A stretch of DNA of 64,000 nucleotides from Ulota crispa (taxonomy: Eukaryota; Streptophyta; Bryopsida; Orthotrichales; Orthotrichaceae), in contig OY987249.1 of assembly GCA_963920765.1 (NCBI GenBank), positions 12,400,817-12,464,816 of the forward strand. Reading direction: 5' to 3'. Shown here piece by piece: positions 2,705 through 50,548 of the stretch; position 1 is the stretch's first letter; the number at the start of each line of letters is the position of its first letter. Below the pieces are notes generated by a model. The model ran no database searches, had not been told where the DNA came from, and saw nothing but the letters and a program-made list of their open reading frames with translations. The position numbers and the translations under genes are program-made.

Positions 2705-2959
2705 TTAACCCTTAAAGGACCGAGATAATATAATAGCTACTATAATACATACTATGTATGCTGCTGTATAATTGGCATTTGCTACCAACAAAAAGTTTTA
2801 ATTTGAGATTTTTAGCTACCTCACTAGAACAGCATTGATCTGTATTCTAACTTCTTTGTTAATCTCAAATATAATAAAGGTGTGGATACACTCCAAATAC
2901 AAAAGAATTACTCCATATTGTACTAGTTGCGAAGGGCTGCTCGGTCATTCAAGGGTTAA
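2705..2959. mobile_element. TTAA-flanked MITE (255 bp)
   Basis: TTAA at 2705-2708 and 2956-2959 flank ends that read CCCTTAAAGGACCGAG (left) and, in reverse complement, CCCTTGAATGACCGAG (right), differing at two positions. The interior is homologous, in reverse complement, to the element at 21110-21347. There is no coding capacity. The target tetramer and the CCC start are piggyBac-like. It sits at the upstream edge of the P450-related block. Confidence 0.8.
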
Positions 2960-3611
2960 GCTTCTACCTAGACACTTGCCGATTGGAAACAATATTTCTT
3001 ATTAATATCTGTTTTGTTGTCGTCTATCAAACTTTTATGTACGGCTCCATAACTCGTTTGTCATCTCTTGATCATTTCAATCTTGAAACATCATGGAGGT
3101 TTACTCCAAGTTACAACAATTCACTTTACGTTCCACATTCCCACTGAATTCTCATTCCCCACGGCACGTCTCCTGCAGGCGAAGGTAGTTCAGTCACAGT
3201 GAGTGGGACGCACAGGAGAAGTCTTCCACGAAATGTAACCCCCATACAACAAGCCTTTCAACCAGAATCGGGTACGGGCGTTCACAGGGAATACGTTAGG
3301 GACTACGTCAGGGAATACGGTAGAAAGTTTATGGTGGGACCCCGCGGAGTGGTTCTGGAAAAAGCTATACGCTCTGGACAGAATCTCGTTCTAGACACAC
3401 CCATACCCGACCTTTTAACATGGTCTCCCCAATTCTGACTTTATGTACCCAGGGTGGATAATTCAAAATTGAAATGTACATCTTGGGTACATTAAGGGTT
3501 GGTCAAGGGAAGGGGTCAGTTTTAGGTGTGTCTATCTTACAAGATGAAAAGAGGTTGGGTGCCAAAGTAGGCTCAAGGACGTGGGAGAGACCTCGAGGGG
3601 GACATATGTAC
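2960..3611. other. Unassigned intergenic sequence
   Basis: No recognisable gene. Short open frames (for example 3199-3438) match nothing I recognise. Base composition is less AT-rich than the repeats around it. Confidence 0.4.
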
Positions 3612-3867: not shown

Positions 3868-3884
3868 TGAACTTCAAAGACATT

Positions 3885-4710
3885 GGGGTGATGGCATGAT
3901 CTGGATACCTTTGAAAGAACCTACTTGACCTCTAGACAGGACTCTGCACTAGTGAGTTTAGATTATTTTTGTTTAGGGGAAAATTTGAACTTGCAAGTGA
4001 TGAAACATTTATTTTAAGCTTTCCTTATGTTATGACATTCATTTAGAAAGTGTTCCTTCCATCAAAAGGACTTTCTTGATTTTTTTTCACACTATAAAAG
4101 TGATTAGAACCCAAATTTCCCAATCAAGACTATTTTGACTTGTAATTTGTAATGACTCCCTGAAATGAATTATTAACATTTTAATCATTTTGACCATATG
4201 TGCACCTAGAAGTCTAGAACCAAGTATATGTGCATGCTTTTGCCGCTTTAAAAAACAATTACATATTTTTATTGTTCTTTATTGGACGTGGAAAAACTTG
4301 CATGAAATTGTCCCTAAAAGAATTCATAACAACTAATTTTAATAACGTATGGACTAATACACTTTAAATTCATGGACCATAGAAGCTTGCACAACTATAA
4401 ATGCATTAACCTAATTCCTACTAACCAAATATGTAGTCCAGATGAGTCCTTTACTTCATTTTGATGAAATGAAATAGTTCCAAAACTTCTCACAAATCAC
4501 TCATTTGGACATGATAACATTCATCATTTAAAAAAGTGCATTTTGTTTTCTACTAATCTACAAGTATAAGGAACTTCTTGTCAAAAAATAAATAGCAAAG
4601 CACTATTTGGTAAGATGTAATAAATAGCAAAAGTATCATGGGTATGGCCAAATTGGAGTTAAGCAATCCTTCTTGGATACCTTGATTGTGCCATTACCCA
4701 CAGACAATTT
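3885..4710. mobile_element. Dispersed repeat with inverted ends (family copy 1, holds the empty TTAA site)
   Basis: The left end GGGTGATGGCATGATCTGGA is mirrored by a right end whose reverse complement is GGGTAATGGCACAATCAAGG, followed on both sides by a GTATCC-like motif. An inverted copy lies at about 15940-17110 and a partial one at about 37690-38100. At 4030-4033 this copy has TTAT where the inverted copy carries the 16310-16960 insertion. No coding sequence. Confidence 0.6.
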
Positions 4711-4830
4711 CACGCCAAAAGGTAAGGTACAATGAAACTTTAAAGCTTCTTGTGGCACAGAGCGTGGCTAAGGAAGGACGTGACCCTTACGTGGATTGCA
4801 CCAAACAAAGGATTGACTAATGGGGATAGG

Positions 4831-4972
4831 CTAAGGGTCTCCTTCCATGTGAGGGGGTGATCAATAATTGATGGGAGGGGATTCCATAAAAATTGGGACT
4901 CCCATCGGACGGATTATAGATAAGCTAATCGGAGCTTCATTAGCCACCTCCTCTTATGGAAGGAGGCCTTAA
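4831..4972. repeat. Small MITE with ends like GTCTCCTTCCAT
   Basis: The left end GGGTCTCCTTCCATGTGAGG and the reverse complement of the right end, GGCCTCCTTCCATAAGAGG, form an inverted pair about 140 bp apart. A related end occurs near 43165-43190. Its right edge abuts the TTAA of the next element. Confidence 0.5.
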
Positions 4973-5324
4973 CCCCTAAATGTTGGCACAGACAAAAAAC
5001 GTTCGTTGCATCTGAAAAAAAACTTTGTATCCTAGAAAAAGACCAATTTTAATCTCATTTTTTTCAGAAGTGATCATAAAAGCGTAGTGCATCATGGAAG
5101 GCAAAAATTTACCTCTTGAGATGCATTCATTTTATATTGTAACCCAAATTGTGATACATGGTGTTAGCTCCCGAGCTGCCCGTCTTGCAATTTTCATGAG
5201 GGCACCAGGCACTGTTGACTTTTCCAACTTTTTGAAGCAATACTACTGGTGCCCATGTGCGAAACACTATAGAATGCTACAAGCAAGGCAAGCCACGGTG
5301 ATCCAGCTGTCCTTTAAGGGTTAA
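4969..5324. mobile_element. TTAA-flanked MITE (356 bp)
   Basis: TTAA at both edges, with ends CCCCTAAATGTTGGCACAG (left) and CCCTTAAAGGACAGCTGG (right, reverse complement). The ends agree in the outer CCCyTAAA but diverge inward, so it may be an old or recombined copy. Its right TTAA (5321-5324) is also the left TTAA of the next element. A 76-codon open frame inside (5094-5324) is not recognised. Confidence 0.6.
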
Positions 5325-5979
5325 GCCCTCAATATCCATGGACTTTCTCAAGTATTGCAAAATTTTCTCTTGGATGAACAAAATGGCAAAATTTTGATAA
5401 GTTGCATCAATTTTTTTATAAATTGTAACCGTACAAATTCAAACTAGATATGCTAGAGATCACATAGAAGAGAAAACACAACAATATCACTTATGAATTG
5501 AAAAATTATAAGATTTGATCATGTGGGTGTTAAAATTATGAAAGTGATTTGAAATCTTTCAATTCTCTTTTCACTTCTAAAATTTAAAAGTGAGGATTTA
5601 AAAAAAAATGAGTATGTAAAGTACAACATGTGTAACCTTTATCAATTTATGACTACTTAAATTCTACTTTATGTTCTTTTTAAATTAAGTTTCTAGTGTG
5701 AATGTTTCTACAAGTTCTAGTGAACTTGAGGCTCATTTCCAAGAGCTCTCAACACTAGAAAGTGAAGATTTGCTATGGACACCCTTGCACAAAATCTTCA
5801 ATAGAAAATCATAATCATTCATTTTCAAAATCAAATTTTTGATACTAAAACAAGACTCCAATAAGAATAATTTCAAACAACAATCACTAAAATTAATCTT
5901 CAAGAAAATTTAGTCATTTCCAAATTGAAATGCAAAGGTGGACAGTTTTGGTCCCCTTAATTTGGCAGTGAGGGGTTAA
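5321..5979 (+). mobile_element. TTAA-flanked element, 650-bp family, copy A
   Basis: Left end TTAAGCCCTCAATATCC and right end, in reverse complement, TTAACCCCTCACTGCC. The interior, recognisable from TTTTGATAAGTTGCATCAA and a block ending in GTGGACACCCTTGCACAA-like sequence, is shared with 11577-12230, 33710-34353 and, inverted, 16310-16960. No open frame of useful length. Both terminal TTAA tetramers are shared with neighbouring elements. Confidence 0.75.
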
Positions 5980-6706
5980 CCCCTAAATCCCTGAGTGTCC
6001 CCCTTGGGGGACAAATGAGATTTCGGGCAGGTACCTATGACTAAACTACTTTGTGTGATTTTTTGAAACTTTTATGGGAGATGGGGAATTTGAAGATCTC
6101 TGTGCACATCTAACTTTTTTTTCATTCTGATATTTTTTGAAGAAGTAAAAAATGAATTTCTGAATTTATTTGGAGACAGGGCAGTCCGGGCAGCCCAATT
6201 TTTTATTTATTTATTTATTTTTAAAATAAAAATCTGAAATTGGTTCTTTGAGTTTACATATACGTCGGAAGCTTTAAATCACTCACTTCCAGCACATGAA
6301 TTGAAAGTTATGAGGACTTTTAGTTACGTGGTAGATATGGCTCCATATCTACCACGTAACTAAAAGTCCTCATAACTTTCAATTCATGTGCTGGAAGTGA
6401 GTGATTTAAAGCTTCCGACGTATATGTAAACTCAAAGAACCAATTTCAGATTTTTATTTTAAAAATAAATAAATAAATAAATAATTGGGCTGCCCAGACT
6501 GCCCTGTCTCCAAATAAATTCAGAAATTCATTTTTTACTTCTTCAAAAAATGTCAGAATGAAAAAAAAATTAGATGTGCACAGAGATCTTCAAATTCCCC
6601 ATCTCCCATAAAAGTTTCAAAAAATCACACAAAGTAGTTTAGTCATAGGTACTTGCCCGAAATCTCATTTGTCCCCTGAGGAGACACTCAGGGATTTAGG
6701 GGTTAA
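5976..6706. mobile_element. TTAA-flanked near-perfect palindrome (731 bp foldback element)
   Basis: TTAACCCCTAAATCCCTGAG at the left is mirrored by CTCAGGGATTTAGGGGTTAA at the right. The two arms of about 360 bp match almost base for base, meeting at a two-base loop near 6341-6342 (ATATGG CT CCATAT). Ends of the same type occur at 10394-11326. It can form a long hairpin if transcribed. There is no coding capacity. Confidence 0.85.
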
Positions 6707-8229: not shown

Positions 8230-8636
8230 ATTAATATGTGAACCACACCCTTTGAACTATTGTATCACACCCCCGGGGTAAATTTTAGATTTCTACCATC
8301 AAAAATTTGAGTTTGAGAATTTTGAATTCAAATTTGGACTTAGAGACCATGGTATTGTCTAAGACCATAAAAAATGTTGCAATTCAACAACATCCAATGA
8401 AAAAGCTTATTTTTTTTACAAACAAAAGTAAAATTAACAATTTTCTCCCTAACTAAACTTTTTCATTGGGTGTTGTTGAATTGCAACTTTTTTTATGGTT
8501 GTAAACAATACCATGGTCTCTAAGTCCAAATTTGAATTCAAAATTTTCAAATTCAGCTTTTTGATGGTAGAAATCTAAAATTTACCCCGTAGTGTGGTAT
8601 AGTAATTGGAAGGGTGTGGTACACATATCAATTCCC
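8230..8636. mobile_element. hAT-like palindromic MITE nested in the CACTA element
   Basis: A foldback of about 400 bp. The left arm begins ATTAATATGTGAACCACACCC, and the right arm ends GGGTGTGGTACACATATCAATTCCC-like. The internal arms pair through TACCATCAAAAA and GTTGCAATTCAACAAC blocks. The flanks ATTTTTTA / ATCTTTTA are a plausible eroded 8-bp duplication. It is present at the same place in all CACTA copies here, so it was inserted before they multiplied. A free copy is at 32257-32685. Confidence 0.7.
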
Positions 8637-9419
8637 ATCTTTTAAAGCTTATAAAAATATTTTATAAGATTGTTTTTTTTTAATTCATTTGGTTAGTAAT
8701 AGAAGGAAAAATACTAAAAATATCCTTTAAGTCTTTCAAAATATCAAGTTTACGCCAAAAATATGTGAAACATAAAAAATAGTCCTTATTTTTTGTAGGA
8801 ATATCAATTATACTCCTATCGTTTTGGAAATTTAATAAAAAACTCTTCTATTTTGAAATGATAAATATATCCTTGTGTTATTTGAAATGTAAAAATCACC
8901 TTTGGTTTCTTGTAAGAATTTGCATTAAACTATACACTTGGTTATCATGTAACACAAAGATATTTTTTGTACTTTTAATCCTTGAAGGACATATATGATT
9001 TCTTCAAAGATTTGAGGAGCATCTTTCATATTTGTTTGTAAAGAAATTTTGGTATTTAAAACAACAAAATGTTGTACTTTTTATATAAAATTTTGTTGAA
9101 TTAGTGAAGTTGTGTCCAAAAGTGTCCAGATCAACAGACAACTATTGATTTTTTTGTTATTATGGTCATGTTTTTACTTGACTTTAAAGGCTGCTAATTT
9201 TAAATCTTACCAAATTGTGAAAAGTAAAAAAAATAAAACCAGTCAATGTACACTCAAACTTCTAAAAGATTCTTTTTTTTTTGAAAACTTCTTTTATTTT
9301 TTAAAACTTCAAAATTTTTTAATGAGGTCCAAAAAGAGTTTAGAAAGATTTCAAAAACAAATCTAAACTATTGTGATAGTTTTTTTGTTAAAAATATTAT
9401 AAAGTATTTTGATGATTTA

Positions 9420-10393: not shown

Positions 10394-11326
10394 TTAACCC
10401 CTAAATCCTTGAGTGTTCTCTCAGGGGACAAATGGGATTTTGGGCAGGTACTTACAGGTTCAATTTTTGTCTTGATTTTTTGGAACTTTTTTTGAAGATA
10501 GGAAAATACATTAGTTTTTGGGGAATATAAATCTTATTCCAATCAATGCCCAAAAGCAAAAGTTATGCCTAGATAAGCAAAAACTTATGCAAATTGGGCA
10601 GCAAAAAAAACTTACAAAAACTTGAATTTTTTTAATTTTTGTTTTTTTTTTGTCATAGGTTATAGTTTTGTCTACATCTAAAGCTTTGATTCATTCCATT
10701 TGGACTAGTTATGCGAAAGTTATGGACAATCTTGTTTTTGGGCACCTCAAGCATCTTTTTGAAAATATAACTTGTAAACTTCATTTTTGAATGCAAGTAT
10801 AACAATTTTTCAAAAAAAATTGTTGGAGAGGGTGAAGTTTGCTTGCTAGAACAATCTCACCATTGGGATTATTGAGTTTCAATTCCATTGTAAGGTTATT
10901 AACAATTTAAGTTTTTGTTCAATCTCATACCTCCTTCTATCCAATGTTTTCTTTAAGAATGAAAATTAAGTATTTTTTGTTTTGATTTTTTTCCAAAGAT
11001 TCTCAACTCAATTTCCCACCATACAAAAGTAAACCTCAAAACTTTGTGGTGCAAAAATTTTAAGTTAAAAAAGTTCAAAGTCAAATAGTCTAGTCATGCA
11101 AGGTGCAAAAAAATTTGTTTTTTTCACTTTGAATGCAATTATCTTGCAATCTGTGCAATCAAAGTTTTTGAATTTTTGTTTCCACTTTCTTATACTAGTT
11201 TAGTACAAGATCCTATGGTTAGATATGCAAAAAGACCAATTTGCAAAAAAAATTACTCTTTACAATAGAAATGGCAATTTTGAGTGTCTTTTGACAAAAC
11301 AAAGACCCCAAGAATTTAGGAGTTAA
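10394..11326. mobile_element. TTAA-flanked element (933 bp)
   Basis: Left end TTAACCCCTAAATCCTTGAG and right end, reverse complement, TTAACTCCTAAATTCTTGGG. The left 60 bp is clearly homologous to the 5976-6706 palindrome, including the stretch GGGCAGGTACTT. The interior is AT-rich with no coding sequence. It starts only 20 bp after the CACTA element. Confidence 0.75.
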
Positions 11327-11576: not shown

Positions 11577-12230
11577 CTTTCCCTAAATGTCCAAGGCCTT
11601 TTTTGAGCTTCTAGGAATTTGCTCTAAATTGAACTAAAAGTCAACATTTTGATAAGTTGTATTAGTTTTTTTTGAATTGTAGCCATGCAAACTCATACTA
11701 GATATGTTACACATCACGTAGGAAAAGAATACACAACAATATCACTTATGAATTGAAAGATTATAATGTTTGATAAAAAAGGTGTTAAAAATTGCAAAAA
11801 TAACTTCAAGTCTTTCAATCCTCTTTTCATATGTCAAATCTAAAATTCTGGTCACCAAAAAAATATGAGATTAAAAGATGTAACATGCATAACTCCAATC
11901 CATTTACAATTTTCAAAATCTCTTTTATAGAATTTTTAAAATGAATTTCTAATATGAATTTTTCTCCAAGATCTAGTATATTTGAGGCTCATTTTCATGA
12001 GCTCTCAACACTACAAAAGTCAAGATTGCAATGGACACCCTTGCACAAGATCTTGAATAGGAAATTCACTATCAATAATTTTCAAAATTGGGATTTTCTT
12101 ACTAAAACTAGACTTCAAAAATAATAATTTGAATATACTAAATACTAAAAACAACAACTTAGTTAGGTTTTATTAAACTTCAGAATATTGTTGACACCAA
12201 AATGTGGTACCTTGGACATTTAGGGGTTAA
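11577..12230 (+). mobile_element. TTAA-type element, 650-bp family, copy B
   Basis: The right end GGACATTTAGGGG plus TTAA (12227-12230) is intact. The left end CCCTAAATGTCCAAGGCC is preceded by CTTT rather than TTAA, so that target copy is eroded. The interior is collinear with copies A (5321-5979) and D (33710-34353). Confidence 0.7.
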
Positions 12231-15939: not shown

Positions 15940-17110
15940 CTTGAATGCACATTACCCACAAACATCTTGTATAGTGCACTCCCCGTGAGTGTATTAGTCC
16001 ATACATTATTAAAATTAGTTGTTATGAACTCTTTTAGGGAAAATTTCATGTGAGTTCTTCCACATCCAATAAAGAACATTAAAAATTTGTGATTTTTTTT
16101 AAAGTGGCAAAAGCATGCACATATACTTGTTTCTAGGTGCACATATGGTCAAAATGATTAAAATGTTAATAATCCATTTTAGGAAGTCATTACAAATTAC
16201 AAGTCAAAAAAAGTCATGATCAAGACATTTGGGTTCTAATCACTTTTATAGTATGAAGAGAAATCAAAAAAGTCCTTTTGATGGAAAGAACACTTTCTAG
16301 ATGAATGTCTTAACCCCTAAATGCCCAAGCAACTAGATTTGGGTCTTTACAAAATTTCAAAGATAAATAAAACCTTACCAAATCACTCTTTCCACTATTT
16401 TTTTTCAATATAAGTTTGTTAAGAAGTCTATTTTCAACATCAAAAATCTGATTTTGAAAATGAGTGTTGATGATTTTTTTACTCAAGATTTTGTACAAGG
16501 GTGTCCACTGTAACCTTGAGTTTTCTAGTGTTAGAAGATCTTGAAAATGAGTCTCAAACACACCGGGGATTGGAGAAAAAATTTGCATGAGAAGTCCATT
16601 TAAAAAATATATAGGAGTAGATTTTGGAAGCTGTAAATTGATTAATTTGACATGTAATGACATTGAATCTCATATTTTTTTGGTGACCAACTTTTTAGAG
16701 TTGACATGTGAAATGAGGATTAGAAGACTTCAAGTCACTTTTATAGTTTTCACACCCTCAAGTTCAAACATTATAATCTTTTAGACTTTAAGTGATATTG
16801 TTGTGTTTTCTTTTTTCATGTAATCTCTAAAAAGTTTAGTTTGAATTTGTACGGTTACAATAAAAAAAAACTTGATGAAATTTATGAAAGGGTTGATTGA
16901 TTGTTCAGTTTCATGGAAATTCTAAGAAGCTCAGATAGGCCTTGGGAATTGAGGGGTTAACATAAGGAAAGCTGAATAAAAATGTCTCATCACTTGCAAG
17001 TTCAATTTTTTTGCTAAACGAAAAAAATCACGACTTACAAGTGCAAGAGAAATAATAGTCTTGTCCAAAGGTCTAGCAAGCCCTTCTAGGGGTACCCTAA
17101 TTGTGCCATC
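15940..17110 (-). mobile_element. Inverted copy of the 3885-4710 repeat, split by a TTAA element
   Basis: About 15990-16309 and 16961-17110 together match the reverse complement of about 3890-4370 with only scattered substitutions. The match is interrupted exactly at 16310-16960. This gives the paralogous filled/empty site comparison for the TTAA family. Confidence 0.75.
16310..16960 (-). mobile_element. TTAA-flanked element, 650-bp family, copy C (651 bp)
   Basis: TTAA at 16310-16313 and 16957-16960. Left end CCCCTAAATGCCCAAGC; right end in reverse complement CCCCTCAATTCCCAAGG. The interior matches copies A, B and D in the opposite orientation. The related empty site reads GTC-ATAA-CATAAGG where this one reads GTC-TTAA-element-TTAA-CATAAGG, which shows a 4-bp target duplication. 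Confidence 0.85.
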
Positions 17111-19192: not shown

Positions 19193-19273
19193 TGAACCCC
19201 TAAAGCACTAATCTCAAGCTATCACCAAAATTGCTTCAAAACTGCCATTTCTAGTACAAGTATCAAATTATAA

Positions 19274-20565: not shown

Positions 20566-21113
20566 TTAACCCCTAAGTGCCCAATTGACCATTTTCTGGT
20601 CGCTGTCCATTTTTTTTGGGTTGCTTGAGACAATAAAAACATTTTTCAAAAAACTATTTTTTATTTGTGATAGAAAATCAAGTCTACTTTTCAACTTAAC
20701 TTGAATCATGTCAATCCAAGTTAAACTCCACCAAGGATAGATTTTCAAAGACAAACACTTCAATATTTGCTAGTGTTGTAAAATTTACAATTTTGGGAAA
20801 CTAATGATGTTTTCTCCTTTCAAAAGATTGCATTTTTGGAGTGTAGGATAGAATATCTATTTTTAACCAATCATACCAAAATTTGAAATCTATGAGTAAA
20901 ATTTGTAAATTTGGTGAATGTTAAATGGTAAATGCTTCTAAGTTTATTACATAAAAATTCAAATTTTTTTTTGAGTGTTTGACCATATGGATAATTACTA
21001 AATATTATGATTTTTGTTTCCTTTTTTTAAACAAAATTCATCAAAGTTACAAAAGTACCAGTTTATAACACATCTATGTTTTGCCCTTACCCGCTTGGGT
21101 CTTTAGGGGTTAA
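20566..21113. mobile_element. TTAA-flanked element (548 bp)
   Basis: TTAA 20566-20569 and 21110-21113. Ends CCCCTAAGTGCCCAATTG (left) and CCCCTAAAGACCCAAGCG (right, reverse complement). No coding sequence. The right TTAA is shared with the following element. Confidence 0.8.
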
Positions 21114-21347
21114 ACATTAGTTGAAAGATTCTTTCTATCTAATGTAATAAAAGGTATTTTGTTTATATTTAGAATGAATTAGCACCTTTCTTATATTTAA
21201 AATTACCAAAAGAATTGAAACATAGATCAATGCAATTCTAAACTTCTAGTGAGCTACTTGAGATCCTTGATTTAAACTTTTTGTTGATAGCCAATGCTAA
21301 CTATACAACAATATATCCACTATGTCCATGGGACATTTAAGGGTTAA
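21110..21347. mobile_element. TTAA-flanked MITE (238 bp), left end eroded
   Basis: The right end is CATTTAAGGG plus TTAA (21344-21347). The interior, including AACTTTTTGTTGATAGC, is homologous in reverse complement to 2705-2959 along nearly its whole length, which places the left boundary at the TTAA of 21110-21113. The left CCC terminus itself has decayed. Confidence 0.65.
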
Positions 21348-23465: not shown

Positions 23466-23704
23466 TTAACTCCTGAGCGTCCCCTATCGCCTCTGGTTTT
23501 TGAAAAATGTCCACGTTTGGCTCTTATCCTCTTATTAATGGTACATTCAAAGGATTTGTACTTTTTTTGTGTACCTTCATGCATGTGTCTATTACCACTC
23601 AAAAAAATTCAAGCTATTTGACTATACTTAAGTTATACTTTTATTGGACTAAGTACACATGGGTATGGATTTGAGTGAATTTGGCCTAAGCGCTCAAGGG
23701 TTAA
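23466..23704. mobile_element. TTAA-flanked MITE (239 bp)
   Basis: TTAACTCCTGAGCGTCCCC at the left; the right end in reverse complement is TTAACCCTTGAGCGCTTAGG. Its right TTAA (23701-23704) is immediately followed by CCCCTAAAGTTC, the left end of another element. The ends are closest to those of the outer element at 25808-28305. Confidence 0.75.
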
Positions 23705-25579: not shown

Positions 25580-27210
25580 CTTTTTGACAATAAGGCCTTT
25601 CACACACAAGAGAGTTAACCCTCATTATACTCATAAAGTCATTATATTATAATTGGTGTTTGGGCCAATCTTAAGACCATTTGGGCTTAAACTGTGGTTA
25701 AAATGGTCCCAAATATTCATGACCTTGACTCCTAGTATAAAGCTTTGTACCTTTAGGAATGGTTTTAACAACTATACCCTACCTTTGCTTTTCACAAATT
25801 TTTGTTATTAACCCCTGAGCTCCCAAGTTGATTTCACCAAAATTAAGGTTTTTGGAGATTGGTAACTTTGATGCATTGTATCTCAATCAATTGAATGATT
25901 CACAAAAAGTGACCATTGAAAAAAGTGAAACACCTACTTAAAATGGCTTGCAAATTTTGGGAATAGCTAAACATGAGAGATGGGAGATTATAACATCTAA
26001 TCAAACAATATGTGATAATAAAATCTCATTTTTTGGTAGGTAGTTGCTATTTGATGTTTTTACAAAATTCTATAAGGCCTTGATTCATCTTAAATTTTGA
26101 GGAGCAAGATTAGATGTGAAAGCACACACTTGAAAATTATTGAAGATTGCACTTCTTCTTTTGTTAAGTTTTAGAACTTCAAATGGCCATATTGCACAAA
26201 AAACAATGACCGGCAAAGTCGATGACGGTTGCCATAATAAGGATCTAGAACATGCTTGAACCCTTGCCAACAACTTTCCCGCTACCACAAAGCTTACACA
26301 AGGAAGCTTGCAAGGGATATTGACCAATTGCAGCCTATAAAACTCTGCTTGCCACCATGCCCTTGTTGCCCCATACAGTGTTTCACCAAATCAAATCTCT
26401 TGTAGCACTTGTATAACAATTTAACTTTCCTCACCATTACTCCATTGACATGGACAACTTGAATGCCTTCAAAATTGTAGTTTGTAGCAAGACCAAAAAA
26501 TTAGATCCAGTGCCTCAAAACAAGGCTTTAACCCTTAAATGCCCAAGGCACTAGATTCTGGTGTCCAAAAACTTTCAGGAAACTTTGAAACCTTGTTGAA
26601 GTTACAGATTTTATTGTTTTGAGGTTTTTTTGTGGAAAATTTGTGCATTGAAGTTAGTTTCATTGTTCAAATTCAACTTCATCCATATCTTGTTTCATTT
26701 GATTTTGGTGGAAGGTTAACTACAAGCATACATTTTCAATTGTGAATAGTGTTGTGAATAGTGCCATAGAGCCTATGAGAAATTGCCACATTGAAAAGAC
26801 AAGCATCAAGTTGAGCAAAAGGTGAAGATTTCCCTTGGACACTCCCTTGGGCAATAAGGGCCTTTTTACTAAAATTTTGACATCTAACAATATCTAAAAG
26901 TGCTTTTGAACTAATTTCACTTGGAATGTCTTTGTTATAGAAATTAGAATCCTTTCGCCGTTGAATTTTCTTTCATTCATAATGATTTTTGGTCAATAAT
27001 TGAAGTCAAAAATTTCTTTGTATTAGATGGTTGTATTTTGACAGTTGTGTTGTAGGCTCATTTGTGAAATTGTGGTCATGGATTTGAAAGAGAGGCCATT
27101 GGTTTTGAAATAACAACAATAAACACTAAGGCATCCTAAGTGGTTGTCTCCCAATTTTTGTATCCAAAAGTTGCCAATTTGCATTAGAAATTTTGGGTAG
27201 TTAAAAAAAA

Positions 27211-28022
27211 GGGGAAATTACAAATAGGGGCATGAAAACATAAAATATTACAAATAGGAGCTTAGTTTCAAAATAATTACAAATAGGGGCACAATTTCAA
27301 AAAAAAATTGTGTTTTTTTGTAATATTTTGTTGGTTTGGACATTGGTTGATTTAGACACATCACATTACATGTTAACTAATTTCCAAAAAACTTAAAGAT
27401 CTCTCCAAATCAAGCCTAAATAAAGAAATTTTAGTAAAGGGGATGCAATTTTTGAAAACTTTTTAAAATTTTGGAAGTTAAGTTACACTCACTATGATGT
27501 AAGGTAGGCACATCCATAAGCGTGGAAATAAGGCTTTTGGAGTAGGTAAAATAATTGAACAACTTTGAAAAAAATATTGTAAATTAGGAAATGGAAACCA
27601 AAAATATTGGCATCAATTTCAGGGTTCCAAGTGCAAGCATTTGTTCACAAAGGTTTTTCAAAGTCCAAAATCAGTGAAATTGTAGGGACCATGTGTAAGA
27701 GATGCTAAAAACAAGGCTTGCTGGTTCTCAAATAGTGAGATGGGTACTCAAAACCGTCATGGAGTCACCCACAACCATCACTTTGTCACCCATAAATATC
27801 ACTTAAGTATCCGTAAGCACCCTAACATTGTCAGTGATACCCATGGGGACCTCATGCCCATGGGTGCGGCTACCTTATATGAATCAACCAACGTCCAAAC
27901 CAAAAAAATATTACAAAAAATATGCATATTTTTTAAAATCATGCCCTTATATGTAATTATTTTGAAACTGCGCCCCTAAATGTAATATTTTACATTTTCA
28001 TGCCCCTATTTGTAATTTCCCC
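27211..28022. mobile_element. Mutator-like MITE, copy 2 (third level)
   Basis: Ends GGGGAAATTACAAATAGGGG on both sides, with the exact 9-bp duplication TAAAAAAAA at 27202-27210 and 28023-28031. It is about twice the length of the other copies because of the insertion at about 27500-27877. Confidence 0.85.
27500..27877. mobile_element. Fourth-level insertion, ends TAAGGTAG
   Basis: The left end TAAGGTAGGCACATCCATAAG-like sequence pairs with the right end, in reverse complement TAAGGTAGCCGCACCCATGG. The other two Mutator-like copies lack this block. The exact target duplication was not resolved. Confidence 0.55.
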
Positions 28023-28305
28023 TAAAAAAAAGAAAAAAATTCCATGGCCATCACCATTCAATCACAAGTATCTTAAAATCCACATGGGTATTTTGAATTC
28101 TTTTTGATTAGTGCCATCTAGAAACTTTGAAGTTCAAGATTCAACAGTTACAATTTTATTTTGATGTTTATAATGATCTTACAAGGAAAATTCAAAAACT
28201 TCAAAACTACCTTTTGAAAACAAGAAAAACATCCTTGAGGCTTGAACATTTAGGGGTTAAATCAGGAGAGGCAATATATGGGGCGCTGGGGCGCTCAGAG
28301 GTTAA

Positions 28306-28707: not shown

Positions 28708-29451
28708 TTAACCCTTAAAGGATGGGCCTACAACCATGGATTTTCCATGGAATTGCAATAATCTTCTAGGAGTTATTTTGGCAATGCTATCAACATCAAA
28801 ATTCAATATTATAATTTTAGCAGAAGAAGGTATGTGCATACTACATGTGTAAAAAATGTTCATAAATTTTGGTGAAAATTTGAAATTATTGTAAATTTAT
28901 GAAGCAAATGCTAAAGAGATTCATATAAATTACAAAATGTATTGAATTATGCCAATTTTTTTTATTGTGGATGTGAATCATGATGGAAATCATCATGATG
29001 GAATTTTTCTTCCCATACTGGTACAATTAGAAAAAGTAACCATCCCATGGTAATAGGTACTCAACTTGTGATAGTAATAAAATTTTCAAAACTTAATTTT
29101 TTTCAAAATCTTAAAGTACAAGGAGAAACTAGATTTGGTAAACTTTCTATAGCTTGTTATGCTCAAACTAAAAGCACAATATTTTAATAACTTAAATTGA
29201 GTTTTGGGAAAAAAATCCTCAGAATTCAAAATACACCACACAGTGGTGCATTTTTACTACTCAATTGGCAAGTGGGACCCTTTTGTGAACATTGTGCATA
29301 CAAAAACTATCTATCTACATGCTCTAGAATTACACTATACATATCTCAACAAAATCTTAAATGAAAAACAGTGTTATTACACTTTGACAACACTTTTCAA
29401 TCACAATCACCCAGAAGCCACAAAATGGCTTTTGCCACGTTTAAGGGTTAA
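28708..29451. mobile_element. TTAA-flanked element (744 bp)
   Basis: TTAA 28708-28711 and 29448-29451. Ends CCCTTAAAGGATGGGCC (left) and CCCTTAAACGTGGCAAA (right, reverse complement). It contains a 91-codon open frame (29204-29479) that crosses the right boundary and is not recognised. It ends where the homology between the two P450 upstream regions begins. Confidence 0.75.
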
Positions 29452-33600: not shown

Positions 33601-36600
33601 AATTCAAGTTAAGGAGGATGAGATTACCATGATTGCTATGTAATATTATGAACAATTTCAGTTTCCTCAACATTGAGGTAATATAAGCTTTCATTCATTT
33701 TAACCATGTTTAACCCCTAAATGCCAAAGGCCTTTTTTGAAATTTTAGGAATTTTCTCTAAACGGAACAGAAAGCCAAAATTTTGATAATTGTATCAATT
33801 TTTTTAAATTCTAACCATACAAACTCAAACTAGATATGTTAGACATCACATAGGAAAAGAAAACACAACAATACCACTTATGGATTGAAAAATTATAACA
33901 TTTAATCAAGAGGGTGTTAAAACTATGAAAATAACTTCAAGTCCTTCAATCCTCTTTTAACATGTCAAATCTAAAATGTTGGTCACCAAAAAAATATGAG
34001 GTTAAAGGACATGACATACATAACTCCAATCCATTTACAACTTCTCAAAATCTATTTTACGACTTTTCAAAATGAATTTCTAATGTGATTTTTTCTCCAA
34101 AATCTAGTGTATTTGAGGCTCATTTTCATGAGCTATCAACACTAAAAAAGTCAAGATTGCAATGGACACCCTTGCACAAAATCTTGAATAGAAAATTCAC
34201 AATTGATAATTTTCAAAATCAGGTTTTAGATGCTAAAGCTAGAGTTGAAAAAGAATAATTCTAAATACTAAAGATAGCACCTTAGTTAGGTTTTATTGAA
34301 CTTCAAAATATTGTCGGCACCAAAATGTGGTGCCTTGGGCATTTAGGGGTTAAAGGGTGCACTTCCATATTGCTTTAGAACTAAAAATTTGGAAAGATAA
34401 AAAAATAAACATAAAGCAATATTTGCAGCTAACATGATATTTGTTAATTTGGGAAAAATCCTTTCTCAAAATGGATTCTAGGGATACCAAATTTTGCATT
34501 TTTGAGAATATTTTGGTGACTTAAAGTGAGTCTTTTGATAAATTAATTCCTTCAAGATGTTTTCATCATTGATGTAAGGTCTTAAAAAATCATCATAAAA
34601 TTCACTCTAAATCACCTAAAAACTCTTTAAAATGAAAAATTCAGAAGTCCCAAAATTAAGGTTTGTTCCCAAATTAATGAATATTGCGGTAAGTGGCTAA
34701 AAGCACCAAATTCAGAAATTGAAAATAGTGTTCTAAGAAACTTCTTGCAAACGCACATTTGGACATTTGAATTATTTCAGGTTAGGAAACGCCAATCAAG
34801 GTTGTTACTTTGGGATTTTGGGTGATTTTAGGCTGTTGGACAACATAGAGTCAAGGACAAACCGCCCAAAAAGACAACATGGAGGGACGTGTCCGCCTGC
34901 TCGTGTTTTTTAGAGCATTTTTAGGGTTTTTGACCTGAAAATTAGAGTTGTCTTGTTGGATAAATTTTTGGGGTTTGGTCATTGTATTGTCTATTTGTCT
35001 AATGTTGCGCATGATAAATATTAAATATGCGTAACATTGTTGTCTAATAAGGTCGTATTTAACAACTAAGATAATTTGAAAATCTATTTTAAATATGACC
35101 CAAAATTTAGAATCTAATAAATGTTTATTAAATTGAGATATTTCAACAAAATGGAATGTTAATATGTCAAAATTGGAAATAGAGAGTTCTTTATTTAAAA
35201 GTCTAATTTAAAATTGACTTTAATAGATAGACAGAGGAGCTCTTGTCCATTTGTGATGTTGTATTTGTTGAGTTGTTGCCATGTTGAGGAAAACAATGTT
35301 GCTAAAAAGGGAAGAATCAAATTATTATTTTTTGCTTTTATTACATAATATACTAATATGACTTTGAATCCATAATTTGACTTTATGTTGGCAACAATGA
35401 GTATCACTAACATGTACAAAATAAGTTTTTTTTATCATTTTGAACCATTTTTTAAAATCACATCAAGTTGACTTCATCAGACAAACCATGATCTCAATCA
35501 AGCACTCAAGCATATAAGCGGGCAAGCAGACAAAAATGCGTTCCAATGTGAGTCAGGTGACAACTATGACGCCAATTGTCATGGCCAATTTTGATTTAGA
35601 ATGAAAGTTTGCCTAGCTTGTTGTCATGGTTGTCACATTGGATTGTATGTCCGTCTGCTTGCCCGTCCGCTTGAAGTGCTTCATTGAGCTCATGTCTGTC
35701 TAATGTAGTCAACTTATCGATGACTTCAAAAAATGATAAAAATTTGATGAAAGAAACTTACTTTGTACATGCTAGTGACACTCATTGTTGCCAAGTTGAA
35801 GTCAAAAGGTGGATTTAAAGCCATATCACCTAGTAAAAATTAAAAATAATGATTTGATTTTTCCCTTTTTAGGTCAAAAACCCTAAAAATGCCCTAAAAA
35901 GAAGAGAGGACGTGACCAACCGCTTGTGTTGGTCCATTTTGTGTGTTTGCCCATGATATCCAATAGCAAAATCTTGCCCTAAGTAACAATAATCTACTTG
36001 CTGTTGATTTCCTTATTTTGGTAACAGCTAATAGTAGTTTTGATTTGTTTCCTTATTGATGCAGGAATTTGTGGAGATTGTAGATGAATTGAATACGTGC
36101 TTGAGTGCAATTTACCTTGGCGATTTTTTCAATTTGCCTGAGTGGTGTGACCCTCAAGGGTTGCGCAAGCAATTTAAGGGACTACGGGCCCAATTGGATC
36201 AATTTTACACAATAATAATTGATCAACATCTTGAAGAGCGGCAAAGAAAGCCCATCAAAGACAATGGCCAAAAGGTGCTCCTTGATCTTTTGCTAGAGCA
36301 ACAACAAAATCCGCTGACCAAAATTACCAAAGAGCACGTCCAAAGCACTATCTGGGTATAAAATCTAGAAACCCTAAATTGCAACCTAGACAATTTTACC
36401 TTTCTTTAGTCACTTCCTTGTAATTGATGTATTTTCTTTGTAAAATTGATGTCAAGAAATACTTTGTTTTTGTAAAGCATCACGTTGATATTCCCAATTC
36501 ATATCTTGGGAAAATTCATTTGCAAAATTCAATATTTTGGAGAATTTGTTGTAGTTTACATTGGGCGCCAGATGATTGAGTTTCTCTAATGGATTGATTT

Positions 36601-37532: not shown

Positions 37533-38113
37533 TTAACCCCTAAACCACAAAAGTTCATTCAATAGTTGGTTGAAAGTTTGGATAGGTTCCTATGAAGTCA
37601 ATCTCTGGTGGATCTTTATGAAATTTGGAGATAAGGTGCACACAATGAATACCTTATTGCGAAAAAAAAGAAAATTTCAATTGGATGCTTGGATGATGGC
37701 GCAATCAAGGTAACCAAAAAAGGACTGCTTAGGCCTAATTTGGCCATATCCATGATACTTTTGCTATTTATTGCGTCTTACTAGATAGTGCTTTGCTGTT
37801 TATTTTTTGACAAGAAGTTGCTTATACTTGTAGATTAGTAGAAAAAAAAATACACTTTTTCAAATGATGAATGTTATCATGTCCAAATGAGTAATTTTGT
37901 GAGAAGTTTTGGAACTATTTCATTTCATTAAAATAAAGTAAAGGACTCATCTGGACTACAAATTTGGTTTGTAGGAAATAAGTTAATACATTTATAGTTG
38001 TGCAAGCTTCTATGGTCCATGAATTTATAGTGTATTTGTGATGTAATCATGATTGGTTTGTATTAAACTCATACATATGGCCAGAAAGGACCTTTGGGCC
38101 ATTCAGGGGTTAA
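37533..38113. mobile_element. TTAA-flanked element (581 bp) 3' of the P450
   Basis: TTAA 37533-37536 and 38110-38113. Ends CCCCTAAACCACAAAAG (left) and CCCCTGAATGGCCCAAAGG (right, reverse complement). About 37690-38090 is homologous, inverted, to the right half of the 3885-4710 repeat. That repeat may therefore itself be a derivative of the TTAA family. Confidence 0.7.
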
Positions 38114-40396: not shown

Positions 40397-42094
40397 CTAT
40401 TCTAAGTAAGGGTGGAGTCGCGCTAACCGGATATCAGTCAACAACAACCGCGCGAAGAAGGCCGTCTCCTCGGGATTTGCGACCCACAGAATGGAGCACT
40501 GCGACCGCGTCGCCATGTCGTTCCCGCTCACGGTGAACCGATCACCCACGTGCAATGTTTCACATGGTTTTTTGTTCAAAAAACGCATGAGAGCTCGCAA
40601 TCCAACACTCTTATTCCCAACATCCACAAAAACATCGTTCCCTCCATTAAAAGCACAAAACGGAAGCCTGGAGCCAATCAATTGCACCTGCACCGTCAAA
40701 GCGAGCTCCTCCAAGACCTCGTAAATCGTGGGCTGGCACGGCACCGCGCCCACAGCGCGCGGTTTGCGAACAATCTCGATTGGGATGCGGAGCCTGGCCG
40801 CGCCGGAGCGAAGCGCGCATTCCGCGTCGGAGAGCAGCGCGTTCACGTCGTAATCGGACCACTGCAGCATATCAGGCGACATCCAGAGCGCCTCCGGGAC
40901 GAATTCCAGCTGGTAATGCTGGTTCACCTTCAAGAGGTAGTTGCACTCGCCCCCCATGACGTGGAACAGCGACGTGATGGTGGGAGGGAGCCGAAGCTCC
41001 TGGAACGCTTCCAACAGCCCCGCCAAGCGCGATTCGAATTTGGCCGCGTTCCCGGGGTAGCCCGCGGCGGTGACGATGGCGACGTGAACCCCGCGCTGCA
41101 TGAGCTTGATGATGTGCCCGATCATCTTGTTGTCGCCCTCGATGTGATGCCCGTCCGCGTAAACCGTGCCGTCCGCGTCGAACGTGATGAGCGCCAGCTT
41201 CTCCGCGATGGCGTGCACTTGCGCGATGTTGAGCACGTGCCGGATTTCAGCGAAGTTCGGCGGCACGAAGCGGCGGCGCGAGAGAGACGCGAACTCGTCG
41301 TACTCGTGGAACGCGCGCACGAGTGGCAGGGGTGTGTAGAAGCGGCCCAGCGTCGGGATGAGGCGGCTCAAAGTGCTTCGCATCGGATCCTCCAGATGCT
41401 CCCGCACCCATCGCTCCAGCTTCTCCATCACCTGGAACGGCGAGTGCGTGGAGTGCATCGAAATGATGAACTCGATCAACCCGTCTTGCTCCTTGAGTCG
41501 CCCCTTGCGCCGGAGCACGTGCGCGTCGGATACACTCGACGCGCGGTTCAGGTGTGCGTCCTCTAAAGCTTCTTTGCTCAAAAGCATGTTCCATCGCATT
41601 CCGCCCTTGCTGCCGGTCCCCAAATCCTCACCCCTTGTCGAGCCACTGTTCTTCACCCAATCCTCAGCATCTCGAGGCGCTCCTTCTGCATCTCGAGGAC
41701 GAGAATCGGCGCGTTCTTCGACAATGCTGCTGCTGCTGTTCGGCGCTGCTCCGTATGACCTAAATTCCGCCTCCTCGCGGCTCTCTGACACTTCTTCACT
41801 CAGCTCCACTTCAGAGATTTCATGGATGTCGACAGTGGCGTTGGTGTTGTACCTCGCGAGCTTACGATTGCAAGGCAGCGCACCACCGGAGACGAATGTT
41901 GAGCTTCGGGCTAAAACCCTCGTAAAACCCCCGCGCGCCGCCCCGGGGCGAAATGCAGCCACGGAATTGGTGTAGCTCGCAAGATGCGTCGTTGTTGTCG
42001 TCGTCGTCGGCTTGCCTCGCAGCGGAAGAACGCACGACGGCGACAGCAGCACACGTCCTCCTCCGGTCACCGCTGCTGGCGGCGCCATGCCCAC
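40397..42094 (-). CDS. ISN1: IMP-specific 5'-nucleotidase (HAD superfamily, ISN1 family), 565 aa
   Basis: Predicted to hydrolyse IMP to inosine and phosphate in purine turnover. A single uninterrupted exon. The conserved part spans about residues 165-565. HAD motif I is FDADGT (305-310, nucleophile Asp306, second Asp308), motif II VTAAG (341-345), followed by GYPGNAAKFESRL, which is highly characteristic of ISN1. The later block HVGDRF...GND (515-526) supplies acidic residues expected to bind Mg. The first ~165 residues are low-complexity and rich in Ser, Thr, Arg and Ala, with a run of seven Thr (30-36). They could be an organelle transit peptide, which is inference only. The start is the first in-frame Met, and a second lies two codons on. 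Yeast ISN1 is about 450 aa, so the extra length is N-terminal. The coding region is markedly richer in GC than anything around it, and codons end mostly in G or C. A long plus-strand open frame here (40550-41566) is its shadow. Confidence 0.88.
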   Translation of the reverse strand: MGMAPPAAVTGGGRVLLSPSCVLPLRGKPTTTTTTTHLASYTNSVAAFRPGAARGGFTRVLARSSTFVSGGALPCNRKLARYNTNATVDIHEISEVELSEEVSESREEAEFRSYGAAPNSSSSIVEERADSRPRDAEGAPRDAEDWVKNSGSTRGEDLGTGSKGGMRWNMLLSKEALEDAHLNRASSVSDAHVLRRKGRLKEQDGLIEFIISMHSTHSPFQVMEKLERWVREHLEDPMRSTLSRLIPTLGRFYTPLPLVRAFHEYDEFASLSRRRFVPPNFAEIRHVLNIAQVHAIAEKLALITFDADGTVYADGHHIEGDNKMIGHIIKLMQRGVHVAIVTAAGYPGNAAKFESRLAGLLEAFQELRLPPTITSLFHVMGGECNYLLKVNQHYQLEFVPEALWMSPDMLQWSDYDVNALLSDAECALRSGAARLRIPIEIVRKPRAVGAVPCQPTIYEVLEELALTVQVQLIGSRLPFCAFNGGNDVFVDVGNKSVGLRALMRFLNKKPCETLHVGDRFTVSGNDMATRSQCSILWVANPEETAFFARLLLTDIRLARLHPYLE

Positions 42095-47600: not shown

Positions 47601-50548
47601 CCCTCAAGTGACTCCCATGGCATTTTCATAATGTCATCTTTGCTTAACCTTTCAACTCCCAGTTTTCGTAGACTTTGCTCCAAATTGGAAGCCCTCACCT
47701 CCCTATGCCAACCCACATAGATGCCGTAAAATACTGAGTTTCCAGTAAAACAAAAACTTCTCGAAATTGTCAGCCATGACCTTAACCCAAAGTGCCCAAG
47801 CTAAAACTAGAAGATCACTGTGGACGCTAACTGTCAACTTCAAAAAGCATGTTTGTCATTGAAACAGTATGGGACATTGTTTCCTCTTTCTATTGATGCG
47901 TGTTGTTACCTTCCTTGAAACTTTAAATGAGAACTATGTAAGTTTGACCATTTGGGCACTTCGGGTTAACAATATTCATACGGACAATGACTTTGTTGAT
48001 TATAGAATCGTTTTTCAAAACAGTCAGCACATAGTCACAAAAATGTCGACATTCTTATATGCATATATAGGTCACTAACTCACGGAATCATAAAATAAAG
48101 AGGCCAATAAGAAGCAATGACAGATATATTTGTACCTGTAAGTCTTGAGACACTGTTGATGATGGCCAGCAGCAACCAGGCGTTGTGACATCTCGTGCAG
48201 TTGAGGAACAACCTTTGGTGATATCAACACCGGAAGCACTGGAGGATTAAGAGCCTTATCGTTGTGAGGAGTATTTGTCAGCAATAGCTTCACCTCTTCA
48301 CCTTCAGCTCCGCCGTTCTGTGCCGTTTCTGGTACATGCTTCCCAGGGATAGGTAAAGTCTCCATAAGTCGAGCAGGATCTGCTGGCTTACTACAAAGAG
48401 CACCAAACAGGGAAAACTCTGAACTGTGAGTGCTGGCTTACCATGCATGAGCTAACATGTAGTTCCCATTCTTCACTCAACCAGGGTAGAGGAAACTATC
48501 TATGTCACTTAGGCATTTTCCAATACGTAGGACTAAGGTCTTTGAGAGATTTGGAGAGCTCTAGAGAGATCATTTTAAGGGAGGGTCGGATCTGTATAAG
48601 AGCTAATTATATCAATGTATGAAATTCGTGTGCAGTTCCAATCAAAGTGAGAGATTGTAAATCACTGTGAGCAATGGTAGACTCCCTATATTCTCCATTC
48701 AAAGATCAGTGGCCATAGACATTTAGTCAAGTCGTACTTACAACAAGTGCTAATAAGTCCAAGAAAGTGTATGACCAAATGAGCTGCTTTTAAGATCAAA
48801 AATATAGGAGATGTGATAAGGTCCCTAACAAATTCAGTATCCTCTACCTTAGCATCCATAATCCCAGCTCAGTTACACATCTGGACACATTTCTTCACCT
48901 CATCGGCTAAAGAATAATCACACTTGCAAGCACAAAGGAATCCAACTTTACAATAAACAGCAAGAATACAGGAATTATCCAGCCGCAAAATAGAACAAGA
49001 GCTCCTATTTCCCAGTACTGTACTGACCTGTGGTTTGTCAGAAGCACCTTGAACTCTTCTTCAAGGCGGCTCATGCCTTTTCCAAACAAATCTCTCGCTT
49101 GGTTCAGAGCAGTGTCACTTGCTTTCAAACTACGCATAAGCGTTAGATACTCAACATTTTTATGCAGCGTGTCACAAGCGGCCAAAAATCCACCAAAATC
49201 GCTTTTGGGTCCCTCCAGCACCTTGTTTTCCACCTGCATCCCAAATCACACTTAAGTTGTTATCCCCTAAAGGCCACTAACATATCTACAGGAGTTAAAA
49301 TAAAATAACAAGGAGGCTTGAAGGTAACAAATGTACCAATAGAAAGATGAAATTATAGTCTCCATTTGTGAACAATAGAAACATATATTGAAAGTTACTA
49401 TAATAGATTCCTAGCTTTCAAACTGAAATTCATGTTTACCGTGTCCATTCAAAGGTTCAAACAAATCATGTATGAGGGTTTCCAGCTCTAATCTGAACTC
49501 AGATGTAAGATATCGGCCAAAAGTAGGGCATTTCATACCTGACGGGAAATGTCAAACTGATGCAGCACAGATTGAGCTGCTTCGAGGGTATTATCAATGT
49601 TTTCATGCGCTTTTCGGAAAGCATGTGTTTTCACCTAGATTCACAGACATGTCACATAATAGCTGTCAAGATGGCTCACTCCACTGACAACAATATACAT
49701 GTCTGCAAAGCCAAATTATATTGCAGAAACAGAACTGATGACAAAGCTAATCTTTTCTGCTGGTAAGAGGTCCCCCACTGTTTCTGCACACAAACCATTT
49801 CATAAAGGTGCTCGAGACAAAAAATTAGGTCAGAATTTTGGAAAATCCCCTATGCGACCAATATCTTCATGTCTCAAGCCTCTGGTGTGTATAAAGACTT
49901 GTTAAGAGCACGTTTTAAGAACTAATTTGAATTGCACAGGTCGAGGCAACATGCTCGTAATCACATGTAATCCTACATCGACTGGATCATTCACTACATT
50001 TATTCGTTTCACGTCATTATGTTCAATGTAGACTTTACAGTAGTATAAGCAACATGAAAAGGTGGCGAATTGCATAGCTCCTACGTGGCATGCATAAAGG
50101 ATTTGAGAGGTGGACTAAATGCTTGTTACTTCAAGCACATCATATATGCAACGGGTTATTTTCTGTAGGCTTAATCACCGATAGTTGCAAGCTGCACATG
50201 ATATTGATGAAAATTTTGAGCTTGTTGGTTCGACCAGTGCAATCTGAAGATGCAAGTTGCAATCTAATGACAAATTGCACCACTACTTGTGACAATTTAC
50301 TGTATTGCCTCAACTGTATATCATTGCACAAGTGTGAACGCCTACAATCTGATTCAGCTATTGGATTGGGAAAAGAGTATGACACTTACTTGAGTAGGTC
50401 GCATTGCAGTCTCAAGGGTAGACAACCGATTGTCAAAAGAGCCTAGAATGGAAATCATGGTGCCCGTCACGTCTCGGCTCTTTTCCAAACTCTCGCGCAG
50501 AAACTCCGCCCGAGACTTGATGGCCTCCATATCGTCGTCGGCCCCCAT
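44656..50548 (-). CDS. EXO70: Exocyst subunit EXO70 (EXO70A-like), 12 exons, 639 aa
   Basis: Subunit of the octameric exocyst that tethers secretory vesicles to the plasma membrane; EXO70 contacts membrane phosphoinositides through its C-terminal domain. Exons, 5' to 3': 50548-50390, 49634-49539, 49233-49028, 48390-48136, 47702-47564, 47216-47004, 46511-46306, 46043-45846, 45711-45612, 45447-45371, 45129-44983, 44779-44656. All borders are GT-AG, phases match, and the sum, 1920 nt, is exactly 640 codons with TAA. The N-terminus (MGADDDMEAIKSRAEFLRES) is a helical, coiled-coil-like segment. Family landmarks are LGVERLS (253-259), LLGDDWVQ-type sequence (around 498-504), KERLKGF, LPAYRSFLKRY and the C-terminal YLKYNPDDLERML. 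Length and intron-rich layout fit the EXO70A clade; Arabidopsis EXO70A1 is 638 aa. The donors of exon 7 (GTACGT, chosen over a nearby alternative to give LLDYQNTL) and exon 10 (GTTCAA, weak) are the least certain borders. No disabling change was seen. Confidence 0.93.
47782..47969. mobile_element. TTAA-flanked MITE in EXO70 intron 4 (188 bp)
   Basis: TTAACCCAAAGTGCCCAAGC at the left; TTAACCCGAAGTGCCCAAAT at the right in reverse complement. It lies wholly within the intron between 48135 and 47703, away from both splice sites. It is the smallest intact copy of the TTAA family here. Confidence 0.8.

Follow-up and report, generated by a model that had tools for sequence, protein, structure and literature searches.

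What are the short units in a 64,000-nucleotide stretch of Ulota crispa DNA that have CCC-starting tips and TTAA on either side, and what moves them? The stretch, which we call the window throughout (contig OY987249.1, G000:C8:12400817-12464816, in an assembly of 274.8 Mb and 157 contigs), had been read from its letters alone as holding a set of piggyBac-like miniature inverted-repeat transposable elements (MITEs). We conclude, with very little doubt, that the window elements are non-autonomous piggyBac-superfamily MITEs in a green-plant, most likely moss, nuclear genome, moved at TTAA by transposases encoded in the same genome. That the host is a green plant is well supported by 56 chlorophyll a/b-binding matches, only one of 14 control genomes (a cyanobacterium) having a match; for one such protein the top solved chains are the multi-domain 9vfj_2 and then the single-domain 8htu_U (458.5 bits) and 7xqp_a (457.1 bits), the next single-domain chain scoring 436.9 bits. 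7XQP is from Physcomitrium patens (PMC13066549) and 8HTU is PpPSI-L (PMC10005731), and the presence of ten large contigs, of 15.8–41.4 Mb, is in keeping with a moss; these papers and those below are cited from excerpts.

TTAA-flanked ends in the window and across the genome

Exact TTAACCCYTNA ends number 25 on the two strands of the window, 45 times the level in 20 first-order Markov shuffles of the window with both strands counted (mean 0.55, maximum 2), and the reversed 11-bp motif does not occur in it. With one mismatch allowed the excess falls to 2.8-fold (42 ends, against a shuffle mean of 15.2 and a maximum of 19), so that a lone one-mismatch end is weak by itself. This low ratio is what could be said for putting the TTAA-flanked units down to chance, with a common motif happening to fall into such arrangements in AT-rich DNA; the exact ends, the existence of empty sites (see below) and an assembly-wide count of 25,820 for the 17-bp motif TTAACCCYTNARNGMCC, as against 3 for its reversed pattern, leave that reading a negligible probability, and the shuffles together with the genome-wide reversed control rule it out.

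The window is typical of the genome in its density of the 17-bp motif, with six copies in 64 kb and one per 10.6 kb genome-wide, and is somewhat rich in the 11-bp ends, with 3.9 per 10 kb compared to 2.3 in eight arbitrary 6-kb stretches (47.8 kb in all, with 11 exact ends and no reversed controls, three of the eight stretches being without any). Extrapolation from this count of 11 gives about 60,000 ends in the genome, or very roughly a tenth of it; the listed elements together make up about 9.9 kb of the window.

The existence of a TTAA-flanked set is borne out both by the 25 exact ends and by the finding of a TTAA-bearing right partner for all 16 of the left edges listed originally. The form TTAA-CCC(C/T) proposed for these edges holds in part: 15 of the 16 read TTAA and 11 read exactly TTAACCC(C/T), while the edge at 11577 has CTTT instead of TTAA (its right end and family membership are clear), and four others have variant tips, GCCC at 5321, ACAT (decayed) at 21110, CTCC at 23466 and CCCA at 47782. 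The weakest pairs, 5321, 21110 and 23466, are supported by relatives elsewhere and not by their ends alone, with 5321 matching the 650-bp family at 74–79%, 21110 matching element 2705 at 71%, and 23466 matching positions 8768-8971 of the transposase locus L012 (described below) at 86%. The least certain outer boundaries are those of 25808-28305. A single TTAA is common to each of four adjoining pairs (5321/5324, 5976/5979, 21110/21113 and 23701/23704), probably because the flanking TTAA of one element served as the target of the next.

Comparison by BLAST of 15 of the listed elements (47782 was left out) places their interiors in about ten groups, and groups with unrelated interiors have only the outer tips in common, as had been anticipated. 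The 650-bp family has four members in the window (5321, 11577, 16310 and 33710) and the 240–255 bp family has two (2705 and 21110); elements 5976 and 10394 have about 112 terminal bp in common, and 5976 is 97% identical to its own reverse complement. Fourteen of the 16 units are 188–933 bp long. When the member at 33710-34353 was used as a genome query, 5,225 first-look candidates were returned, and all 40 of those scored matched. The elements are thus short, non-coding and present in high copy number, as expected of MITEs, and have short inverted tips that start with CCC, as in piggyBac, and that resemble those of transposase elements in the genome; we infer that they were mobilised by those transposases. 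Outside the listed elements, a 913–917 bp family with CCCTTTARRGACCAC-type tips is seen at L014 517-1429, L023 8162-9078 and L026 8175-9089.

Insertion at TTAA and the transposases of the genome

Insertion at TTAA with duplication of the target is demonstrated directly by empty sites, for one MITE and for one transposase-bearing element. The joined flanks of ten element pairs were used as queries, and 40 of 3,975 first-look candidates were scored. All 40 span the junction of element 16310-16960 in copies of its host repeat, one of them in the window itself, and among the 13 empty sites aligned (12 fetched and the window copy) 11 have one TTAA, one has TCAA and one has ATAA. No spanning match was seen for the other nine pairs among the 40 of 3,975 scored, which is expected if these lie outside repeats or if the abundant repeat filled the scoring. 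The second case is the element at L024 2301-7608, whose site has the empty form CCAAG-TTAA-ACTCC and, when filled, TTAA on both sides. Across the genome, TTAACCCCTAAATGYCCAAG occurs 2,978 times (1,461 and 1,517, with none for the reversed control), and its 16-mer, counted without the TTAA requirement, occurs 3,517 times, such that 84.7% of copies lie directly 3′ of TTAA. Inconsistent TTAA flanks genome-wide had been named beforehand as grounds for rejecting the piggyBac assignment; what we find instead is TTAA before 2,978 of 3,517 ends and a single TTAA in 11 of 13 empty sites. The TTAA flanks of the 18 copies of the 650-bp family sampled below follow from their selection as exact TTAA-bearing matches, and are not counted as evidence.

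A search of the genome with the PF13843 (DDE_Tnp_1_7) profile gives at least 120 matches, the best with an E value of 1.3e-73; scoring covered 116 of 528 first-look candidates and ignored introns, and 20 loci (given here as L numbers) were fetched with their flanks. None of 14 control genomes has a match, although this is a weak control, the only named genome among them being a bacterium. The original prediction reported no transposase, and this is correct for the window so far as none of the matches listed, a lower bound, falls within it, but not for the genome. The L018 protein aligns in its catalytic region with the solved structures of Trichoplusia ni piggyBac (6x67, E 4.1e-20) and piggyBat (9c0f, E 5.8e-17); the alignment to 6x67 ends before the third catalytic aspartate and that to 9c0f spans it. 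The catalytic aspartates of the T. ni transposase are D268, D346 and D447 (PMC7351741), and the corresponding motifs are present in the Ulota crispa loci: the first (DE) in 12 of the 20, the second pattern in 16 (chance and mutated occurrences included), and G-x-D/N-x-x-D-Q in 17, one of which is GVNVGDQ (L018). Recognisable DE, DN and GxDxxDQ motifs are kept in L017, L021 and L022. A C-terminal cysteine-rich domain of the form CxxC-CxxC-C-C-H, in a PiggyMac-like arrangement, is seen in nine of the 20 loci, with a histidine upstream of it in L017, L026 and L027; the motif was not found in the remaining loci, 11 in number, of which many are broken.

Stops interrupt 110 of the 120 matches; ten are stop-free, these being incomplete or defective. 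L018 is stop-free over profile positions 2-340, but has GVNVGDQ where others have GVDVADQ, so that the aspartate is lost; L017 is stop-free over positions 30-349 and keeps its catalytic motifs, with a stop before the Cys/His domain. Between families the transposase core is constrained, with w values of 0.10 for L012/L020 and 0.08 for L013/L018, the two pairs in which synonymous divergence (dS) is unsaturated; it is saturated for L026/L027 and L009/L014. Values of 0.08–0.10 imply that the enzymes were working while these lineages split. Long open stretches lie upstream of the core in L012 (430 aa), L020 (464 aa), L013 (539 aa) and L018 (354 aa), are 26–43% identical between elements (82% in a close pair), and gave no convincing Pfam match when scanned; we read them, provisionally, as an N-terminal extension or a first exon.

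Three transposase elements are firmly bounded: L024 2301-7608 (5,308 bp), L028 2195-7424 (5,230 bp) and L012 1567-7312 (5,746 bp). The L024 and L028 elements are 89–93% alike, and the likeness starts and stops exactly at TTAA. The L024 element is inserted at a TTAA within a relative of window MITE 20566-21113, the latter being an uninterrupted homologue with one TTAA; the idea that 20566 is an internal-deletion derivative of this transposase element is thereby ruled out, as the L024 element sits inside a copy of the 20566 family. The link between transposases and MITEs is clearest for L012, which carries a transposase between the tips CCCCTAAATGCCTAAG and CCCCTAAATGCCTAAA. Its ends, CCCCTAAATGCCTAA(G/A), differ from the MITE end by one or two bases over the terminal 16 bp, and about 560 bp of window element 26528-28260 is similar to its left end (330 bp at 84% and 237 bp at 80%). 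Judged from sequence, it is only through this long similarity of 26528 to L012 that a particular transposase lineage can be assigned to a particular MITE family.

Several results weigh against the conclusion that same-genome transposases moved these MITEs. First, no fully intact transposase between intact ends was seen among the 120 matches, and in the close pair L024/L028 (dS 0.14–0.17) the core has a w of 0.46, as expected of decay. Secondly, pairing of tips at 12 or more of 16 positions was found in nine of the 20 loci, compared to 2.9 expected from cross-locus combinations (56 of 380), and at nine or more of 16 in 13 loci, compared to 10.2 expected; seven of the 20 have no end pair even at the lower threshold. 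Thirdly, for the main 650-bp family none of the matches listed to paired transposase elements exceeds 25 bp once the outer 50 bp or so are passed. Because the cross-locus rate is high, end matching alone does not set the boundaries of most transposase elements, and bounding them by end-pair similarity alone was rejected on this control; for the majority of the 20 loci, tip pairing by itself is weak evidence. In L024 the end partner with the highest score is 8910 and the true one is 7608; in L020 the left end chosen by pairing, at 565, is made doubtful by similarity to L012. Candidate end pairs in ten other loci give lengths of 5.0–7.0 kb, some of them probably wrong.

TTAA by itself is not specific to piggyBac, as Kolobok and Sola3 elements also prefer it, and another TTAA-duplicating superfamily such as these could in principle account for the elements. 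This we regard as very improbable, as elements with these tips carry DDE_Tnp_1_7 together with piggyBac catalytic motifs, with the Cys/His domain in nine of 20 loci, and the L024 element has its own TTAA empty site, which refutes the alternative for the L024 family. For the 650-bp family, which has the CCCCTAAATGCCCAAG end, the Kolobok/Sola3 reading is improbable rather than refuted. A same-ended partner from another superfamily had likewise been named in advance as a reason to give up the piggyBac assignment; the elements with matching tips encode piggyBac transposases, and with the TTAA empty sites they sustain it.

The transposase of L022, at 3950-5638 (G000:C1:1180649-1182337), lies in two exons free of stops, with about 270 bp between them that resemble a GT-AG intron; the catalytic motifs are kept, the Cys/His motif was not found, and a search of 4 kb on either side found no paired ends. 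From these sequence features L022 may be considered a candidate host gene. Transposase matches of equal score lie on opposite strands 15–20 kb apart on two contigs (G000:C7:18203169 and 18223004; C2:36765124 and 36779670), which suggests large inverted duplications, either real or arising from assembly. No viral contigs matched patterns built from the L012 transposase.

Mechanism, age and known relatives

The larger piggyBac elements (5.2–5.7 kb in the three that are firmly bounded) encode the transposases that would have moved the MITEs by cut-and-paste. The transposase is predicted to bind the common outer tip (CCCYTNARNGMCC...) with no need of the interior, and this recognition would explain why unrelated interiors have the same ends. 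It would then excise the element and insert it at a new TTAA, in the manner of the T. ni enzyme, with excision presumably restoring TTAA without a scar, as in piggyBac biochemistry; tip recognition, scarless excision and TTAA integration are described for the T. ni transposase (PMC7351741).

The original prediction also called the set active-looking, and in this it is not supported. Eighteen copies of the 650-bp family on contig C1, chosen for having both ends exact, have a mean divergence of 19% (range 6.6–30%) and apparently fall into two or more subgroups; with stops in 110 of 120 transposase matches, recent activity is not demonstrated. Continued mobility today is consistent with the many perfect ends (2,978), the ten stop-free transposase matches and the motifs kept in L017, L021 and L022. 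We nonetheless think it unlikely, given that the closest pair of the 18 copies is 6.6% apart, that two related transposase copies differ by a dS of 0.14–0.17, that the stop-free match spanning most of the profile (L018) has GVNVGDQ, and that ten 350-base starts of another common tip include no pair more than 90% alike over more than 100 bp. The greater part of the sampled material is old, and much of the expansion looks so too.

Among the closest parallels to these non-autonomous elements are the CMITEs and AmiPB elements of Acropora, which likewise have CCC-starting MITE tips (for example CCCTTTAAGCCCTA and CCCCTCAGTGTCCG; CCCTTAGAGACCTA in AmiPB5), TTAA flanks and transposase partners in the same genome (PMC2872659). 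The Acropora MITEs are 96–108 bp long, with about 1,600 copies estimated in one coral and partners of 2.2–3.7 kb (PMC2872659), whereas in Ulota crispa the elements are mostly 190–930 bp, there are 25,820 exact 17-bp ends, the bounded partners are 5.2–5.7 kb and the host is a plant. T. ni piggyBac likewise has a DDD catalytic transposase and a TTAA target (6x67; PMC7351741); the bounded Ulota crispa elements are about twice its length of 2,472 bp (PMC10803768) and have long coding stretches upstream of the core. The piggyBac elements of compact animal genomes, a survey of animals only, also have TTAA in most cases and CCC-starting tips (PMC10813416), and range from 1.23 to 9.51 kb with one terminal repeat of 528 bp, so that, going by the excerpts of that survey, neither great element length nor a long inverted repeat is in itself a novelty. 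The C-terminal motif, CxxC-CxxC-C-C-H, departs from the CxxC-CxxC-CxxH-CxxC of T. ni and is similar to that of PiggyMac, whose CxxC-CxxC is followed by two further cysteines and a closing H and which also has an upstream histidine (PMC8086355); PiggyMac is however a domesticated ciliate protein, and the Ulota crispa loci are mostly decayed transposon copies.

In plants, a table for the genome of the fern Ceratopteris has 1,230 piggyBac-labelled pieces (PMC6890710) and piggyBac is named among angiosperm MITE superfamilies (PMC10004981), both being, in the excerpts, annotation labels without transposase, end or empty-site evidence. Piggybac-like elements are elsewhere said to occur in fungi, plants and animals, with no plant detail in the excerpted text (PMC8086355, PMC10140906, PMC10813416). 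No moss piggyBac is described in the titles and abstract openings among the literature matches listed, all from the open literature, and an earlier description in mosses is possible; the moss paper among those matches (PMC10619864) uses only the word "piggybacking". The set is real and its assignment well supported: the kind of element is a known one, present in great numbers in a host that is unusual for it. It is conceivable, although we hold it as somewhat less than an even prospect, that mosses have their own long-resident and diversified piggyBac radiation, with deeply split transposase lineages (dS being saturated between some families), elements of more than 5 kb, a long fast-evolving stretch ahead of the core, a PiggyMac-like C-terminal domain, MITEs making up about a tenth of a moss genome, and at least one intron-bearing copy, L022, that may have become a host gene. 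piggyBac is a workhorse of animal genetics, and the plant reports found are, as excerpted, labels or one-line statements without mechanism; the Ulota crispa genome provides a set of elements native to a plant, for which ends, target duplications and empty sites as well as transposases are available. This set opens the timing of piggyBac entry into land plants, horizontal transfer and the shaping of a compact genome to study, and plant-adapted piggyBac tools could possibly be built from it.

Coordinates and other features of the window

Coordinates of the elements and of one empty site in the window are collected in Table 1.

Table 1. piggyBac-type elements, a fragment and an empty site in the window (termini are given as matching positions of 16).
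Positions	Strand	Feature	Evidence
2705..2959	.	piggyBac-type MITE, 255 bp, family of 21110	TTAA both sides; termini 14/16
3945..4182	-	Paralogous empty site of the 16310-16960 insertion	Joined flanks 86.6% over 239 bp; one ATAA, against two TTAA when filled
4353..4700	-	Fragment of the 37533 family, absent from the earlier list	91% over 350 bp to 38039-37690
4969..5324	.	piggyBac-type MITE, 356 bp	TTAA both sides; termini 10/16; relatives in L022 and L014 at 72–73%
5321..5979	+	650-bp family member, TTAA common with both neighbours	77–79% to 11577, 33710, L027 and L009 copies; left end GCCC
5976..6706	.	731-bp near-perfect palindromic (foldback) member	97% self reverse-complement; termini 16/16
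10394..11326	.	933-bp element, left 112 bp as both ends of 5976	78–79% over 114–115 bp; termini 13/16
11577..12230	+	Member of the 650-bp family, CTTT by mutation in place of the left TTAA	85% over 652 bp to 33710-34353
16310..16960	-	650-bp family member with empty sites	Joined flanks align across junction in repeat copies
20566..21113	.	548-bp MITE, homologue of the L024 2301-7608 pre-integration site	Uninterrupted, with one TTAA at the L024 insertion point
21110..21347	.	238-bp MITE, left end decayed, TTAA common with 20566	71% over 158 bp to 2705 in reverse
23466..23704	+	239-bp MITE	86% to L012 8768-8971
25808..28305	.	Element interrupted by 26528-28260, host probably ~765 bp	Outer termini 13/16; boundaries less certain
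26528..28260	-	Non-autonomous relative of L012, carries nested insertion of ~0.8 kb	330 bp at 84% and 237 bp at 80% to L012 left end 1567-2120; termini 13/16
28708..29451	.	744-bp MITE	TTAA both sides; termini 10/16
33710..34353	+	650-bp family member, used as genome query	Termini 15/16
37533..38113	.	581-bp MITE	TTAA both sides; termini 10/16; 73% over 162 bp to L011
47782..47969	.	188-bp MITE, variant terminus	Inward tips TTAACCCAAAGTGCCCAA and TTAACCCGAAGTGCCCAA match

Fragments of cytochrome P450 genes also lie in the window, as does a single gene for ISN1 (IMP-specific 5'-nucleotidase), at 114-622, 31111-31494, 36619-37233 and 40397-42094. Three of the six window proteins scanned against Pfam matched; cytochrome P450 matches are at 31111-31494 and 36619-37233, and 109-518 is 83% alike to 31129-31537. 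No Rfam family reached its gathering score in the window. At the start of contig C1 the 300 bases inspected are all N, so that no telomere repeat can be read there.

At the right end of the window, 58126-64000 is an inverted duplication (99.9%) whose arms flank 200 N (about 60912-61111), and an exact direct repeat of 442 bp adjoins this gap. It has the look of either a large palindrome or a fault of assembly, and it is the source of the TTAATCCTTGAAGG ends that match each other at 59434 and 62692. Two further repeats are at least partly self-complementary: a family of about 400 bp, separate from the elements above, at 24450-24856, 27211-28023 and 53139-53592, with copies nested in 26528-28260, and another repeat of about 410 bp at 8230-8636, 32262-32685 and 58689-59095.

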